This document shows, one piece after another, positions 20,730 to 32,075 of a stretch of DNA of 34,174 nt (position 1 is its first letter; each line of letters begins with the position of its first letter). The translations under genes were made by a program, and so were the position numbers. The notes below the pieces were generated by a model. The model was not told the origin of the DNA. It did no database searches and was given only the letters and a program-made list of their open reading frames with translations. The DNA comes from Kiritimatiellota bacterium (GTDB lineage Bacteria > Verrucomicrobiota > Lentisphaeria > Victivallales > JAADHT01). The stretch covers positions 1 through 34,174 of the forward strand of contig JAUUYH010000005.1 in assembly GCA_030590505.1 (NCBI GenBank), written 5' to 3'.

Positions 20730-20819
20730 TAACTCCAGCACTTTCGAACTTTAGACCTTCAGCACTCTAGCACTCTAGCACTTCAGAACTTCAAAATTTC
20801 TTCCACTTCCACTTCCACC
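20730..20819. repeat. Degenerate short tandem repeats between moaC and moaA
   Basis: CAGCACTTTCGAACTTTAGACCTTCAGCACTCTAGCACTCTAGCACTTCAGAACTTC...TTCCACTTCCACTTCCACC, reaching the moaA stop codon. Confidence 0.7.
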
Positions 20820-24107: not shown

Positions 24108-24178
24108 AATTTAATTGTTCATATTATACGGTCGTCCGTATGCGGTCGTCCCTACGAAGAATCCCCTGCATCAATATT
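24108..24178. repeat. Direct repeat flanking the Bro-N gene, left copy
   Basis: AATTTAATTGTTCATATTATACGGTCGTCCGTATGCGGTCGTCCCTACGAAGAATCCCCTGCATCAATATT; matches 25008-25068 apart from an extra roughly 14-nt piece. Confidence 0.85.
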
Positions 24179-25000
24179 TTTCTGTTTCAAATAATTCCCG
24201 TCTGTTATAACCTTCTTTTTAGTGGTACTTTCTAACTCTTTTCTTGCATTTCTTGCAACTGAACCACCTTTTTTTGCTGAAATCTTATTTTTAGCTAAAC
24301 CTTCCGCATCTACACTCTCTGCAATCTGACGAGTTGACAATTCCGCCAAAGCTGTAAAAATCAACTCTGCATCGCTCATATGATCCCGTAAATTATGTGC
24401 TTTTAAATCTTTTAATTTTTTATGCTCTTTAACAGATAATCCGCTCCACTCAGAATGAATAAGATTTGTCAGTATTGCAAACTCTTCACCCTCTTCTATT
24501 TTATGATCCTTCCAGTAATCTGTTAACTTATTATGAGTTTCTTGTCCCAACATCCGTTGCTGAATCCATTTTTGACTTCTTCCCAATTTCTGCCAGTTTT
24601 CTCTGGCTCTGTCAAGAGATTTCCCAGGATCTGTTATCTCTGTCATCCTTTCATACCCGACCTTGGCTAACCAAAGTTTTATAGGCTCTGCTTTTTTGCT
24701 TGGTACGCTCTGAACAAGGCGTAAAATGGTTTCAACATCTGCTACATCAGTAAGGCGCATCTTACCATCTTGGGCTTTCATTTTCAACTGGTGACAATTT
24801 GTCACCACTTGACTTCCTTCAATTTTCAGCCTCTCTTTAAGCTTATTCCAGTATTTTCGTGATTTCTGATATTCCTTCTGTTCAGTCAAAGCAGCAACGA
24901 TGTCAATCACCGAAAAATACCATTTTTCTCTCTCTTCATCAAAATGACGCCGAATTTTAAAATCTTCAAATATTGTTATTTTTTTCTCTGTCATTATCAA
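24152..25000 (-). CDS. Bro-N/antirepressor-type DNA-binding protein
   Basis: FEDFKIRRHFDEEREKWYFSVIDIVAALTEQKEYQKSRKYWNKLKERLKIEGSQVVTNCHQLKMKAQDGKMRLTDVADVETILRLVQSVPSKKAEPIKLWLAKVGYERM. Confidence 0.8.
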   Translation of the reverse strand: MIMTEKKITIFEDFKIRRHFDEEREKWYFSVIDIVAALTEQKEYQKSRKYWNKLKERLKIEGSQVVTNCHQLKMKAQDGKMRLTDVADVETILRLVQSVPSKKAEPIKLWLAKVGYERMTEITDPGKSLDRARENWQKLGRSQKWIQQRMLGQETHNKLTDYWKDHKIEEGEEFAILTNLIHSEWSGLSVKEHKKLKDLKAHNLRDHMSDAELIFTALAELSTRQIAESVDAEGLAKNKISAKKGGSVARNARKELESTTKKKVITDGNYLKQKNIDAGDSS

Positions 25001-26342: not shown

Positions 26343-27389
26343 TTATATAATTTTGGCGGCGGTTGCTTTGAAATTTATTATTACTTTATCTTTAATTTTT
26401 AAATTCATTTTTATCATAGACTCTTCTGTTATTAGAACTGCCATATTTACGCCGATATTAACAAAAACCTCAACCCCTAATCGTACGTTTTCAATATCCT
26501 TAATCTCTCCTCTGAAATGGTTTCTTGCACTTGATTCGGAGATCTCTTTTGAAATTGTAATTGCTTCTCCTGGTAATATTAAATTTACATGTCCGTTTTC
26601 TGCGGATGTCGCAACTTCAAACTCCACTCCGGCGGTTTTGAAGAATCCTATGTTGTTACTTTTTTTTATCAATTCTCCTTGATAGAAATTTTTAATTCCT
26701 GCGAAATTCGCAACAAATTCAGATTTAGGATGTTGGAATATTTCATTTGGTGTGCCAGTTTGGACAACCGTTCTGTTTTCCAGTACTGCAATATTTTTTG
26801 CTAGGGCAATAGCCTCCTCATAGTCATGAGTTACATGTATAACCGTCTGACCATCTGCATTTATTTTTCGTAGGAGAGAGCGCATTTCTGCTTTTGCCTG
26901 TATATCAAGCGACGCTAAAGGCTCGTCTAGTAACAACAAGTCTGGATGAGTTGCAAGGGTACGGGCAAGTGCTGTTCTTTGGGCTTCCCCCAGCGAGAGA
27001 GTCTCTGTATCTCTATTCAGGAGATGTGTTATACCTGTTTGAGTTGCAAAGGTATGGACTTCCGCTTCAATTTCTGATTTCTTTAAATTACGACACTTTA
27101 GAGGGTATGCAATATTCTCCTTTACAGAAAAGTGAGGAAACAACGATTGATCTTGATAAACTAATCCTATCCTACGATTCTGTATCTTCTCTTTTGTAAT
27201 ATCATTACCCTCAAAGTGAATAGTTCCACCATCGGCTTTAATCAGACCGATAATAATCTCCAATAAAACAGTTTTCCCTACGCCCGACTCACCAAGCAAG
27301 ACAAAATAGTCCCCTTTCTCTACAGAAAAAGATATATTTTCAATAGTAAAATCACCCAGTTTTTTTGATATATTATTAAGTTTTAGCAT
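26343..27389 (-). CDS. Molybdate/tungstate ABC transporter ATP-binding protein
   Basis: Walker A GESGVGKT, TLSLGEAQRTALARTLATHPDLLLLDEPLASLD, C-terminal TOBE-like region. Confidence 0.9.
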   Translation of the reverse strand: MLKLNNISKKLGDFTIENISFSVEKGDYFVLLGESGVGKTVLLEIIIGLIKADGGTIHFEGNDITKEKIQNRRIGLVYQDQSLFPHFSVKENIAYPLKCRNLKKSEIEAEVHTFATQTGITHLLNRDTETLSLGEAQRTALARTLATHPDLLLLDEPLASLDIQAKAEMRSLLRKINADGQTVIHVTHDYEEAIALAKNIAVLENRTVVQTGTPNEIFQHPKSEFVANFAGIKNFYQGELIKKSNNIGFFKTAGVEFEVATSAENGHVNLILPGEAITISKEISESSARNHFRGEIKDIENVRLGVEVFVNIGVNMAVLITEESMIKMNLKIKDKVIINFKATAAKII

Positions 27390-28182
27390 CTTTTTTCTTT
27401 CCTGATAGTAATCTTAAAATAATAAAAATCATAAGACAGATAAATATAAACAGTGCGGCAACTGGTCTTGAATATTTCAGACCATGAGTATTGAATCTAT
27501 CCCATATTAATATAGGCGTAATCATAGGATAATAGGCTATAACTATTACTGCTCCGAATTCACTTAACCCTCTAGCCCACATCATAATCAAGCCGGAAAG
27601 AACTGATTTCCATGCTAAAGGTAGACTAATTGTAAAAAAGACTCTACTAGGTGATGCTCCAAGAGTTAAAGCCGTTTTTTCCAATTTTTCAGGAACAGCT
27701 AAAAAACCGTCGCGAGCACCATTAATTAAAAAGGGCACACTCACAAATGCCATTGCAATTGCAATACCGCCATAACTGTTGATAAGTGAGAACCCACATT
27801 TCTCTGCTATGTTCCCGGCAAATGATCCGCGTGCGAGCACTCCAAGAAGGGCAATCCCAGCTGCAGTATGAGGAATAATAATCGGCAAATCAATGATTCC
27901 TGTAATAAACCTTTTAAATGGAAACTCTTTGCGCGCTAACAAGTACGCGAAAGGAATTGCGAGTATCGCAAAAAATAGAGTACCAGCCATAGAGACAAGC
28001 AAGGTCATTAAAATACTGCTCTGAACTTTACTGTCATTTGCCGCACTCATAAAATCGGCCCCCGAACAGTTCAAAAACATTCCAAGCAGAGGTGCAACAA
28101 TAAACAAGAGGATGCAACCTCCTGCAAATATCAGCAGTAAATTAAAATATGATATATTCTTCCTACTCATTGTCTTACTCAT
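27376..28182 (-). CDS. Molybdate/tungstate ABC transporter permease
   Basis: IIDLPIIIPHTAAGIALLGVLARGSF, WARGLSEFGAVIVIAYYPMI. Predicted start lies inside the adjacent tandem array; alternative ATG at 28170. Confidence 0.9.
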   Translation of the reverse strand: MSKTMSRKNISYFNLLLIFAGGCILLFIVAPLLGMFLNCSGADFMSAANDSKVQSSILMTLLVSMAGTLFFAILAIPFAYLLARKEFPFKRFITGIIDLPIIIPHTAAGIALLGVLARGSFAGNIAEKCGFSLINSYGGIAIAMAFVSVPFLINGARDGFLAVPEKLEKTALTLGASPSRVFFTISLPLAWKSVLSGLIMMWARGLSEFGAVIVIAYYPMITPILIWDRFNTHGLKYSRPVAALFIFICLMIFIILRLLSGKKKDAKT

Positions 28183-28328
28183 TCTTCCTACTCATTGTCT
28201 TACTCATTGTCTTACTCATTGTCTTACTCATTGTCTTACTCATTGTCTTACTCATTCTTCCTACTCATTCTTCCTACTCATTCTTCCTACTCATTGCCTT
28301 ACTCTTTGTCTTACTCTTTGTATTACTC
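28159..28328 (+). repeat. Tandem array of 12-bp (GTCTTACTCATT) and 13-bp (CTTCCTACTCATT) units
   Basis: 13 full units in order 13,12,13,12,12,12,12,12,13,13,13,12',12' plus one partial, with no unique spacers. Confidence 0.97.
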
Positions 28329-29087
28329 TGATATATTCTCCCAATACTCACATAATTTAAACAATATAGAAAAAATCTCTTTCAGGCATTTTTTTATGTT
28401 TTGAACTTCCTGTTCTTCTAGTGTCTGCCTAGCAGTTATAATATCTAAATAAGCAGAAGATTTCAACGCAGAACTCATGGCCATATTAAAAAAGCGCCTA
28501 TGATCAAAGGATGAAAAACGTCCATTGCCTTCCGCTATATTTAAAACAATACCTAAAGAATATTTATCTAAAGATGTAAAATCTTTATGAGTTAATTGAT
28601 TAAGTGAATATATTGATTTCAGCAAAGCAACATACTCTATAGCTTTTCTATATACTTGCATTTTCTCATGAGAAAAAAATGATTGTTCTTTGTTTAAATC
28701 ATACTGAGCATATTCTTCATTAATCTGAGATCTGCGATAAACACTTTTTCTTAATCCTATTAACATATTAGCAATTACAAAAAGTTTTTGTTTAGAGGTG
28801 TTTTGGTAATCTTCTGGAATCACCTCCCATATCTTTAAAATATCAATACATGCTGCACATTCCAGTGTTGATCCAAGAGAATAGTCAAGACTATTCAATC
28901 TAGCATCCGATAAAGGCATACTGTTTCCTTGTACTAGGTTTAGTACAATACTTTCTGAAGCTCTATTAATTTGATTATAGACAGCAAGAGATATCTGCTT
29001 TGAATCAAAAATAACCTGAAGTGATGTGATGAAGGCTATTGACTTTTGATACACAGATAATTTTTCATAATCAAATTGTGTTTTCAT
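28323..29087 (-). CDS. Tandem-duplicated four-helix-bundle protein (S23/23S rRNA-intervening-sequence protein family, Avd-like)
   Basis: LSVYQKSIAFITSLQ...YNQINRASESIVLNLVQGNS...LDYSLGSTLECAACIDI, then a second domain MQVYRKAIEYVALLKS...LDKYSLGIVLNIAEGNGRFSSFDHRRFFNMAMSSALKSSAYLDI. Confidence 0.85.
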   Translation of the reverse strand: MKTQFDYEKLSVYQKSIAFITSLQVIFDSKQISLAVYNQINRASESIVLNLVQGNSMPLSDARLNSLDYSLGSTLECAACIDILKIWEVIPEDYQNTSKQKLFVIANMLIGLRKSVYRRSQINEEYAQYDLNKEQSFFSHEKMQVYRKAIEYVALLKSIYSLNQLTHKDFTSLDKYSLGIVLNIAEGNGRFSSFDHRRFFNMAMSSALKSSAYLDIITARQTLEEQEVQNIKKCLKEIFSILFKLCEYWENISE

Positions 29088-29115
29088 TATATATTCCTGT
29101 TTAATTAAAAATTTT

Positions 29116-29139
29116 AGAGTAAGACAATGAGTAAGACAA
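29116..29139 (-). repeat. Two inverted units of the 28159-28328 array upstream of the four-helix-bundle gene
   Basis: AGAGTAAGACAATGAGTAAGACAA, the reverse complement of TTGTCTTACTCATTGTCTTACTCT. Confidence 0.9.
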
Positions 29140-29209
29140 CTTACCTTTCTTCCTTGTGGTTAATTTTTTCATATCTCCCCCCCTTACCCCGAGTTTACCT
29201 TACTCATTT

Positions 29210-30181
29210 TTATTTCTTCGCATACGGTTTCAACTCTTCTGGGATTGCTTTGTATGTTTCGGATTGTGATGGAATTGCAGAAGGTTGCCCAAGTTTTTCC
29301 ATTATAGCCATCCCCTTTCTGCTCAAGATAAAATCAACAAATGCCATTGCTGCAGCTTTATTCGGTGGATTTTTTGGTATTGTAATACCATAAACCATTG
29401 GTGCCCCAGTTTTGGTTATAAATTCTCCTGGTTTTTTCCCGGAGATTTGTACCGTTGCTTTTTTGTAGAAATCAGTCAACTCAGTTTTTTTTAGATTTAC
29501 TTCATCAGGAATAATCAAATATTTCAAACTATGTTGTTGTGCAACGGAACGATAAAGAAAGATATAATCTATTGCTTCTGCTTCAAGAAGAGCCAGCAAA
29601 TCTGTCTCTTTAGGACGGATATAATTGAGGTTTTTTGCTAAAAGATTATCGGTGATTGTTTTATCTTTATAATATTCTCCAGCAAGTTTCATTGTCAGAA
29701 CTGCACGATATCCGCATGGATCAGCATTCGGATCAGATCTACCAAAGATAATATCTTTTTCCATTAATATTTTGTACCAATTATCGCTGTTTATATCTTT
29801 CGAGCGTCTTGATGCTTCATGATACACAATAGACATTTCATTTGTAGCAAATTTTATATTCCATGACGCATATTCAGGAATAAGCAATTTATTTATTACA
29901 GTATAATCAGCAGAAGCCATAATATCACAAGGACGTTTAAGATCCGTAATCTTGCGTGCACATGTACGGCTACCTGAGGCTTCTAGCATAATCTCTACAT
30001 CTGGATACTCTTTATTAAACTCTTCTGTTATCTCTTTGAATGGTACACTCAAACTTCCCGCATGGAAAACGACAAGCTTCCCTGAAATTTCATTTTCATT
30101 CCCATTTTTCACCTTTTTACCGCAACTGACAAAAAGCAACGATATTGCGAATATCGCAATAATTGTTTTTAATGTTTTCAT
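29210..30181 (-). CDS. Tungstate/molybdate ABC transporter substrate-binding protein (WtpA/ModA-like lipoprotein)
   Basis: Lipobox SLLFVSCG; LVVFHAGSLSVPFKEITEEFNKEYPDVEIMLEASGSRTCARKITDLKRPCDIMASADYTVINKLLIPEYASWNIKFATNEMSIVYHE. Confidence 0.9.
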   Translation of the reverse strand: MKTLKTIIAIFAISLLFVSCGKKVKNGNENEISGKLVVFHAGSLSVPFKEITEEFNKEYPDVEIMLEASGSRTCARKITDLKRPCDIMASADYTVINKLLIPEYASWNIKFATNEMSIVYHEASRRSKDINSDNWYKILMEKDIIFGRSDPNADPCGYRAVLTMKLAGEYYKDKTITDNLLAKNLNYIRPKETDLLALLEAEAIDYIFLYRSVAQQHSLKYLIIPDEVNLKKTELTDFYKKATVQISGKKPGEFITKTGAPMVYGITIPKNPPNKAAAMAFVDFILSRKGMAIMEKLGQPSAIPSQSETYKAIPEELKPYAKK

Positions 30182-30198
30182 TTGTTTTCCTTTGTTAT

Positions 30199-30422
30199 CT
30201 TTGTCCTAATCTTTCTCTTAATCCTTGTCTTAATCCTTGTCTTAATCTAAAATCTCATCTCCTAATCGTTCTCCTAATCTTTGTCTTAATCTAAAATCTT
30301 CCCTCTAATCTTTGTCTTTGTCTTAATCCTTGTCTTAATCCTTGTCTTAATCTAAAACCTTTCTCCTAATCTTTGTCCTAATCCTTGTCCTAATCTAAAT
30401 TTTCTTCTCCTAATCTTTCCTT
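30199..30422 (+). repeat. Degenerate tandem array (CTTAATC-CTTGT type) at the 3' end of the second four-helix-bundle gene
   Basis: TTGTCTTAATCCTTGTCTTAATCTAAAA(N)CTCCTAATC superunits with 1-2 nt length variation. Confidence 0.95.
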
Positions 30423-31769
30423 TCTTTCATCTTTCATCCTTCCCCAATACTCATCTAATTTAAATAACATAGAGTAAATCTCTTTTAAACACTGTTTTTC
30501 TTTCTCAACACTAATATTTGAAATAATATTTTTAGCTACAATTAAATCTAGAGACGCGGATGATTTTAAAGTAGCGGTCATCGCGATACTTAAAAATCGC
30601 CTATGGTCAAGGAATGAATAACGACCATTTCCTTCAGCAATATTTAAAATAATACTCACTGAATATTTATCTAAGGAGCGAAAGTTATTATAGCTCATTT
30701 GCTGGAGCTGGAATATTGATTTTAATAAACAGATATACTCTATTGATTTCATGTATACCTGCATTTTTTCATGATGAAAAAATACATTATTATTTGTTGA
30801 TCCATATTCATTCTCCTGTTCATTGACTTGCGGGGCTTTATGTACATTTTTCTTTAATCCTATCAACATCTTGCAGATTGTCTGTAGTTGAGTTTTGAGA
30901 GATTTTTGATGATCATCAGATATTAATTCCCATATTTTCAGGATATCTATACAAGCTGCACATTCAAAGGTTGATCCCAGAGAATAGTCAAGTCGATTTA
31001 ATCTAGAATCAGACAATGGCATACTATTGGCTTGAACTAAGTTCATCACAATGCTTTCTGATGCTCTGTGTATTTGGTCGTAAACAGCAAACGGGTGTTG
31101 CTTGGAATTTATGACATTATTGAGAGAGGCAACAAAAGCAATGGATTTTTGATATACAGATAATTGTTCATGATTAATTTTTTTTTTCATATCTTTTGTT
31201 TTGTTTAAATTGAGATTTGAGGGAATGGTAGGATTAGAGCTGGCGGAGGGGGTTTGATTTGGATTAATAGAAAGATTGGGATTAGGACAAGGATTAGGGG
31301 AAGGATTTTGATTAAGACAAAGATTAGGACAAGGATTAGGGGAAGGATTTTGATTAAGACAAAGATTAAGACAAGGATTAGGAGAAGGATTTAGATTAAG
31401 ACAAAGATTAAGACAAGGATTAGGAGAAGGATTTAGATTAAGACAAAGATTAGGATTCGTATTTCCCTTCACTTCGCTTTTAAATTCTGTATATTTTTCA
31501 AGGAGCTTTTCTCCCTCTTCTGTAATCAAGGTTCGCCCTCCCCCTTGACCACCTCTTGTTGTTTCTATAAGTTTTACCCCAAATCCTTGTTCAGCTTTTT
31601 TTAGATCACCCCAGGCTTTACGGTAACTGATATTCAACTTCTCAGCTGCTGCGGACAATGAACCACTTAATTTAATCTCTCTAAGCAGCCGACACTTCCC
31701 TTCCCCAAAAAAACCTTCAGAGTCTTCTGTGCTAAACCAAACCTTAATTTTAGGTATAATCTTTTTCAT
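30390..31769 (-). CDS. ModE-type HTH domain fused through a low-complexity N/P/L/C tract to a tandem four-helix-bundle protein
   Basis: N-terminus CRLLREIKLSGSLSAAAEKLNISYRKAWGDLKKAEQGFGVKLIETTRGGQGGGRTLITEEGEKLLEKY (ModE HTH); middle (NPSPNPCLNLCLNL)n; C-terminus INHEQLSVYQKSIAFVASL...HRASESIVMNLVQANSMPLSDSRLNRLDYSLGSTFECAACIDILKIWE, a close paralog of 28323-29087. Confidence 0.85.
   Translation of the reverse strand: MKKIIPKIKVWFSTEDSEGFFGEGKCRLLREIKLSGSLSAAAEKLNISYRKAWGDLKKAEQGFGVKLIETTRGGQGGGRTLITEEGEKLLEKYTEFKSEVKGNTNPNLCLNLNPSPNPCLNLCLNLNPSPNPCLNLCLNQNPSPNPCPNLCLNQNPSPNPCPNPNLSINPNQTPSASSNPTIPSNLNLNKTKDMKKKINHEQLSVYQKSIAFVASLNNVINSKQHPFAVYDQIHRASESIVMNLVQANSMPLSDSRLNRLDYSLGSTFECAACIDILKIWELISDDHQKSLKTQLQTICKMLIGLKKNVHKAPQVNEQENEYGSTNNNVFFHHEKMQVYMKSIEYICLLKSIFQLQQMSYNNFRSLDKYSVSIILNIAEGNGRYSFLDHRRFLSIAMTATLKSSASLDLIVAKNIISNISVEKEKQCLKEIYSMLFKLDEYWGRMKDERKERLGEENLD
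31291..31456 (-). repeat. Four in-frame 42-bp tandem units inside the ModE/four-helix-bundle ORF
   Basis: Units start at 31291, 31333, 31375, 31417: GGATTAGG(A/G)GAAGGATTT(A/T)GATTAAGACAAAGATTA(A/G)GACAA. Opposite orientation to 30199-30422. Confidence 0.95.
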
Positions 31770-31796: not shown

Positions 31797-32075
31797 ATCC
31801 TTGTCCTAATCTTTGTCCTAATCTTTAATCCTAATCTTTAATCCTAATCTTTGTCTTAATCTATTTTCTTAATCTTTAATCTTTGCCTCTAAAAAAAAAG
31901 AGGAGTTTAGATTAATCTTTGTCTTAATCTATTTTCTTAATCTTTAATCTTTGCCTCTCAAAAAAAGAGGAGTTTAGATTAAGACAAGGATTAAGACAAG
32001 GATGAAGAGAAAGAAGTTTCCTTAATCTTTGTCTTAATCTATTATCTTAATCTATTTTCTTAATCTTAAATCTTT
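31797..32075. repeat. Third CTTAATC-type array with a 68-bp tandem duplication and inverted segments
   Basis: Units on both strands. 31845-31912 is duplicated at 31913-31979 with a CCTCT-A(n)-AGAGG hairpin in each copy. Inverted GATTAAGACAAGG units at 31976-32002. Confidence 0.92.

Follow-up and report, generated by a model that had tools for sequence, protein, structure and literature searches.

Mirror-image arrays of short repeats bound S23 genes in many bacterial phyla and suggest a new kind of minimal mobile element

S23 proteins, rRNA intervening sequences, the RAYT/REPIN system and heptamer repeats are all already known. The intervening sequence (IVS) in the 23S rRNA of Coxiella holds an S23 open reading frame (ORF) with tandem heptamers ahead of the start codon and complementary ends, and its 28-bp terminal stem, heptamers included, is cut by RNase III (PMC4990558). 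Heptamers of the GGGAATC type occur at about 186 places per Xanthomonas genome, generally without association with mobile elements (Rehm et al., PMC4692102). Within the literature that we covered (most subscription journals and preprints lay outside it), S23 and repeats are linked only for the Coxiella IVS, where the heptamers are described in place; priority is uncertain. Here we describe two S23 genes in a 34,174-nucleotide stretch of Kiritimatiellota DNA (contig JAUUYH010000005.1, hereafter the window), together with S23 loci from many other genomes. S23 genes flanked by short repeats (units of 6, 7 or 12 bases) in mirror-image orientation are a real arrangement, general across many phyla, and one that suggests a minimal mobile element of a new kind, made up of the gene and its arrays.

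The two genes and their flanking arrays, the latter from Tandem Repeats Finder (TRF), are as follows.

28323..29087, minus strand: ORF1, free-standing tandem double-S23 protein of 254 aa in the modA/modB gap (PF05635 x2, E 1.6e-23; TIGR02436)
28164..28328: array of GTCTTACTCATT on the plus strand (12 bp, 13.4 copies), forming the 3' arm for the ORF1 element and overlapping the annotated modB start (TRF score 210)
29117..29139: array of GAGTAAGACAAT (12 bp, 1.9 copies) with reversed polarity, forming the 5' arm for the ORF1 element (TRF)
30390..31769, minus strand: ORF2, ModE-type helix-turn-helix (HTH), repeat-encoded linker and tandem double-S23 (TIGR00637, PF00126, PF05635 x2)
30197..30418: array of 12-bp CTTAATCCTTGT-type units on the plus strand, in overlapping rows, forming the 3' arm for the ORF2 element (TRF score up to 324, at 30210-30399)
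31261..31457: GATTAAGACAAG/GATTAGGACAAG array with reversed polarity, forming the 5' arm for the ORF2 element and lying in frame inside ORF2 as the linker (TRF score 310, 42-bp row)

The initial annotation had read both ORFs as related four-helix-bundle proteins of the S23 type, and this was borne out: each has two PF05635/TIGR02436 domains, and the two are 60% identical across the double-S23 part. Scores in hidden Markov model (HMM) matches were 83.4 bits for ORF1 and 89.5 bits for ORF2 against the curated PF05635 cut-off of 33.8, and 73.5 and 82 bits against the TIGR02436 cut-off of 24. The ModE-type HTH of ORF2 is N-terminal (residues 21-101, TIGR00637). The polarity of the arrays does flip across the S23 part of each ORF, as had been proposed. 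ORF1 has arrays on both sides as described, but the 5' arm comprises only about 2 units against 13 on the 3' side; it is predicted to pair with the 3' arm in the transcript over 24 bp (RNA fold, z -2.1). For ORF2 the polarity of the 5' array was given correctly, but the array lies inside the reading frame, where it encodes an NPNLCLN-type linker joining the ModE domain to S23; the 30197-30418 array matches 31256-31460 in inverted orientation by self-similarity. The window arrays are not due to chance, since 20 Markov-1 random windows of the same dinucleotide make-up never exceeded a TRF score of 59, against 210-324 here. Arrays resembling the ORF2 type (GATTAAGACAAG) are listed at 53 places in the bacterium's own 2.5-Mb genome, those of the window included, and the polarity map shows the dispersed arrays to be mostly in a single orientation. 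One array in the window, at 20731-20818 in the moaC/moaA gap, combines AACTTCAG/AGCACTCT and CTTCCA units and has no adjoining S23 gene.

Adjacent arrays and their non-random polarity, which had been noted in the window, recur widely. Among 60 related genomes, 40 have S23, and we compared flanks of 300 bp on each side outside the HMM match, windows that may take in the ends of the S23 ORF. At 76 order-level loci an array was found upstream in 45, downstream in 47, on both sides in 35 and on at least one side in 57; flank similarity was inverted in 49 and direct in 14. Among 29 ParE toxin genes of those genomes, arrays lay upstream in 3, downstream in 3 and on both sides in 0, with inverted flanks in 1 (Fisher 6e-9 for 49/76 against 1/29). 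A second set of named loci came from bacteria of many phyla and one archaeon (80 fetched, 78 usable); these were located by one conserved motif, so that the S[IV]xN[IL]AEG subfamily is over-represented. Here 67/78 have an array on at least one side, and similarity is inverted in 57 and direct in 13, whereas controls taken 1.8-2.5 kb away on those contigs were inverted at 3/274 positions (p 5e-44). A Xanthomonadaceae set, reached through a gammaproteobacterial genome bearing GGGAATC and so labelled from its repeats and from relatives of a known xanthomonad protein, had inverted arms in all 30 loci, with units such as GGGAATC, GGGATTC, GGGACTC and GGGAATG that match the unexplained "GGGANTN" heptamers of that group. 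This offers a first clue to the unexplained heptamers dispersed over bacterial genomes: linking them to S23 gives each a partner that can be tested, and suggests both where the rRNA IVS may have come from and a candidate modular code for recognising DNA or RNA.

Three further observations concern other loci. Genes of the GxxExxY/PDDEXK_3 family (PF13366, loci L102-L130 of the related genomes) have a like architecture with unrelated units; their arrays are inverted, CACGAA/TTCGTG-type and 9-10 bp, with inverted flanks in 20/25 (p 3e-9 against ParE). On a Pseudanabaena plasmid (L163, 2498-2857) an S23 gene with long GCTAAAA arrays is inserted in a type I-D CRISPR locus, where it separates cas6 from cas4. 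A Syntrophomonadaceae S23 match (L196, 3787-4249) is stretched over 463 bp, as though the gene carried an insertion.

Empty-site alleles, expected if the arrays bound something that moves, do exist. On Nostoc plasmids of about 90% identity, the A/B junction of an operon measures 3 bp in five; two others carry an S23 element of 420 bp there, and one more a 602-bp version. TTCTA stands on both sides of the element, so that target duplication there is ambiguous. The B/C junction holds a different S23 element, with GGGGAAAA arms, in plasmid locus L164 and is closed in the others examined. In the 602-bp version the S23 gene is itself interrupted by a mini-element of about 180 bp that has like arms and no S23, and that recurs at 94 places in 42 Nostocales plasmids. 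Another copy interrupts rarA. Two plasmids have this site uninterrupted, as GAAAAAGCCC^ATAATG, which the insertion turns into CCC/TTGAAGAAGAATTCAG...GAATTCTGTTTG/ATAATG. Two mini-element insertions, judged by empty sites, lack the target-site duplication of a classical DNA transposon. Of 30 accB-accC gaps in the Xanthomonadaceae set, 25 measure 1-22 bp, 4 hold a 435-449-bp S23 element and 1 holds an unrelated 280-bp element. This last, in L390, has long terminal inverted repeats (CTGCCCTATAACTCTGAGTGGCC) and occupies the same gap as the S23 elements. The modA-modB gap is empty in G022 (66 bp), holds a single-domain S23 gene with CTAAACA arms in G017, and holds the double-S23 gene in the window, a comparison at operon level, these three genomes being too distant for one at base level.

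Arm length peaks at 4-5 heptamers on either side, with the two sides correlated, as against 1 in the shuffled control. The S23 protein of solved structure, 2GSC, forms a homopentamer (PMC4990558), a numerical match that is suggestive only. Read in gene sense, the 5' arm heptamers contain AGT in 58 loci and ACT in 3; most loci thus keep one array orientation with respect to the gene. The window copies belong to the exceptions. Relatives of ORF1 within the phylum fall into two groups, with double and single S23 domains. Irreducible units of 12-15 bp accompany 13/13 of the double-S23 proteins, while single-domain relatives of either ORF1 half have a 6-bp unit in 24/30 (irreducible long units 13/13 versus 6/30, p 7e-7, with domain number classified by combined HMM and alignment criteria). 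That unit size follows S23 domain number is a strong lead; it falls short of proof because the classification criteria are mixed and because the double proteins may share an ancestor. The suggestion that protein and repeat diverged together also held: across 154 loci protein identity correlates with array similarity (Mantel r 0.139, p 0.0005; none of 2000 permutations above 0.045), with the covariation residing mostly among close relatives. Some units are common to distant hosts, namely AGTGGTT in Ruminococcus, Fibrobacter and Thiohalocapsa, AGTGGCT in Acidobacteria and the window's order, and AGGAGTC in Nostoc and a window relative (L015).

Where neighbours could be identified (n=102), both were in the same direction as S23 in 78 loci, both opposite in 6 and mixed in 18. 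Random insertion into an operon would equalise sense and antisense copies. Either insertion follows transcription or only sense copies survive. The gene is under purifying selection in the Nostocales set (pN about 0.1, pS 0.5-0.6).

These results probably mean that an S23 gene and its two inverted short-repeat arrays form one mobile unit of about 0.4-1 kb, lodged in the intergenic gaps of operons. By the same likely account, the window genes are double-domain members with 12-bp arrays, ORF2 in the modE-modA gap and ORF1 in the modA-modB gap; they need not form one element, and each looks like an element in its own gap of the mod operon. Comparison of sequences argues for mobility and specificity, while binding and chemistry are what we infer. 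The arrays, proposed initially as terminal inverted sequences or recognition sites for the protein, may well serve as either. An S23 oligomer would bind them with roughly one S23 domain per repeat unit, 6-7 bp matching a single domain and 12-15 bp a fused double domain. Binding would probably take place on folded arms of the transcript or of a single strand, and the element, in which no nuclease domain is recognisable, would be copied or moved by a host or trans-acting enzyme. Involvement of the transcript is favoured by the sense bias, the AGT orientation and the parallel with rRNA intervening sequences; a single-strand DNA route would fit the lack of target duplication by mini-elements and their AT-rich target. 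More broadly, S23 could be a modular reader of nucleic acid, about one domain to each 6-7-nt unit, and the commonest intergenic tandem repeats of prokaryotes, the heptamer arrays, could be largely the ends or footprints of nuclease-free S23 mobile elements; we advance this tentatively, since we think it rather more apt to fail than to hold.

Several points weigh against the reading as a mobile unit. Roughly a quarter to a third of loci have no clear inverted arms and about one sixth have direct similarity. The Mantel correlation, though significant, is small, and units diverge fast under 70% protein identity. The double-domain proteins may derive from one fusion, in which case unit size was tested on cases that are partly non-independent. 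No catalytic domain is known in S23. Mini-elements have additional ends beyond their arrays, and another agent may move them. In the window itself the ORF1 arms are unequal (about 13 units 3', about 2 units 5'), and the AlphaFold model of ORF1, from a two-row alignment, has a pLDDT of 36, a confidence too low for interpretation.

The mobile unit could act at the level of RNA, as an intervening sequence whose arms pair in the operon mRNA, whose S23 segment is excised by RNase III and which spreads by way of RNA with a reverse transcriptase acting in trans, S23 being Avd-like. We regard this as a serious contender, a little short of an even chance. It would account for the 78:6 sense bias and for an AGT polarity tied to gene orientation, the arms do pair in predicted RNA, and there are precedents in the Coxiella IVS (PMC4990558) and in the homology of Avd with PF05635 (PMC10053308). 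Selection for expression could also yield the sense bias, however, and mini-elements interrupt the coding sequences of rarA and S23 genes; the window ORFs searched gave no reverse transcriptase match, in a search not aimed at these enzymes. Movement as a DNA hairpin by a Y1 transposase in trans (IS200/IS605 or RAYT-type), with S23 a passenger or cofactor, seems unlikely. REPINs, which are paired inverted REPs, are thought to be moved by RAYTs (PMC3116915). Y1 transposases were found in 39/60 related genomes, and mini-elements insert beside ATAA without target duplication. On the other strand their ends read TTAT^CAA...TTCAA^, which we take to resemble those of IS200/IS605. Yet the TTGAAGAA end of the mini-element is missing from S23-bearing copies, and S23 itself matches PF05635 only. 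That all array elements need a Y1 transposase is an idea weakened by two near-complete genomes (G013, G020) that have S23 loci with inverted arrays and no Y1 match; because none is detectable there, Y1 in trans is probably not a general requirement.

Immobility is less probable still. S23 might be a local regulator, vertically inherited, that binds neighbouring repeats grown by slippage; S23 positions are orthologous within families (accB-accC in 10/30 Xanthomonadaceae loci), and arrays elsewhere in its own genome could serve as targets. Slippage does not predict mirror polarity, matching arms or a modal 4-5 units, closely related plasmids show both empty and filled sites, and the modA-modB gap holds different S23 elements. 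Nor, on the figures above, can the arrays plausibly be lineage-wide clutter to which S23 is linked by chance or in shared islands: array-like repeats do occur away from S23, as at 20731-20818, but inverted flanks at 3/274 shifted positions and 1/29 ParE loci, against 57/78 and 49/76 for S23, refute it. Chance and clutter were both rejected by the shifted-position, ParE and random-window controls.

The operon that hosts both S23 genes runs on the minus strand in the order modE-like HTH/double-S23 fusion, modA, ORF1, modB, modC. Its other features near the elements are listed below.

29210..30181, minus strand: modA, molybdate-binding protein, between both S23 genes (PF13531, E 3.7e-33; syntenic modA in G017 and G022)
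27376..28182, minus strand: modB, permease, the downstream host-operon gene, its first codons in the array (PF00528; 56-57% identical to modB of G017 and G022)
31804..32074: more arrays belonging to the same family, in either polarity, lying upstream of modE-S23 and containing a 68-bp duplication (TRF; polarity map)

The true modB start is uncertain because the annotated one (28159-28182) sits within the array, whose unit reads M-S-K-T in frame. Among the arrays upstream of the modE-S23 gene, the 68-bp tandem duplication (31845-31982) carries a CTCTAAAAAAAAGAG hairpin. An ORF between mobA and moeA (24152-25000) gave no match in an NCBIfam scan; it looks Bro/DinD-like, and the end of mobA recurs in its final codons and the bases beyond them as a direct repeat of about 45-60 bp. 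PADLOC gave no defence-system match, a search for S23 in phages gave none, and relatives of ORF1 were likewise not found in viral contigs.

Among known systems, the 23S rRNA IVS of Coxiella and Leptospira shares with the S23 elements an S23 ORF in the loop, complementary ends, heptamers before the ORF and an orientation sense to host transcription. The S23 elements differ in sitting in operon gaps, in having tandem arrays as both arms, in their mini-elements and in their many unit types; an IVS is inserted in a 23S rRNA helix, whereas the window copies are in the mod operon, and a pattern check of the S23 loci collected by then found no conserved rRNA motifs. Like RAYT with its REPs and REPINs, S23 is one gene flanked by repeats that recur elsewhere, in Xanthomonadaceae partly as short inverted pairs (PMC3116915); in G674, three of four GGGAAT places have both orientations inside about 200 bp. 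In the genome of the window the dispersed arrays mostly keep to one orientation. REPs are 20-40-bp palindromes, whereas the S23 repeats are 6-7-bp tandem arrays, and S23 lacks the Y1 nuclease domain: a Pfam scan of the window S23 ORFs found PF05635 in both, HTH_1 in ORF2 and no Y1 (HUH) domain. Avd, the accessory protein of diversity-generating retroelements, is of the same protein superfamily as S23 (PMC10053308), but no template or variable repeat was identified here. Palindromic mini-elements derived from IS200/IS605 likewise insert beside a short AT motif without target duplication, whereas the ends here are heptamer arrays and the element has no transposase gene. The heptamers of Xanthomonas and Nostoc (GGGAATC, GGGGA(C/T)T) are identical or similar to the units of S23 arms in Xanthomonadaceae and Nostocales, but the earlier paper made no connection with S23 (PMC4692102). 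On our best reading, the S23 system stands outside RAYT/REPIN because it has no Y1 domain, and outside the IVS because it is not in rRNA; belonging to neither, it works like one or the other.

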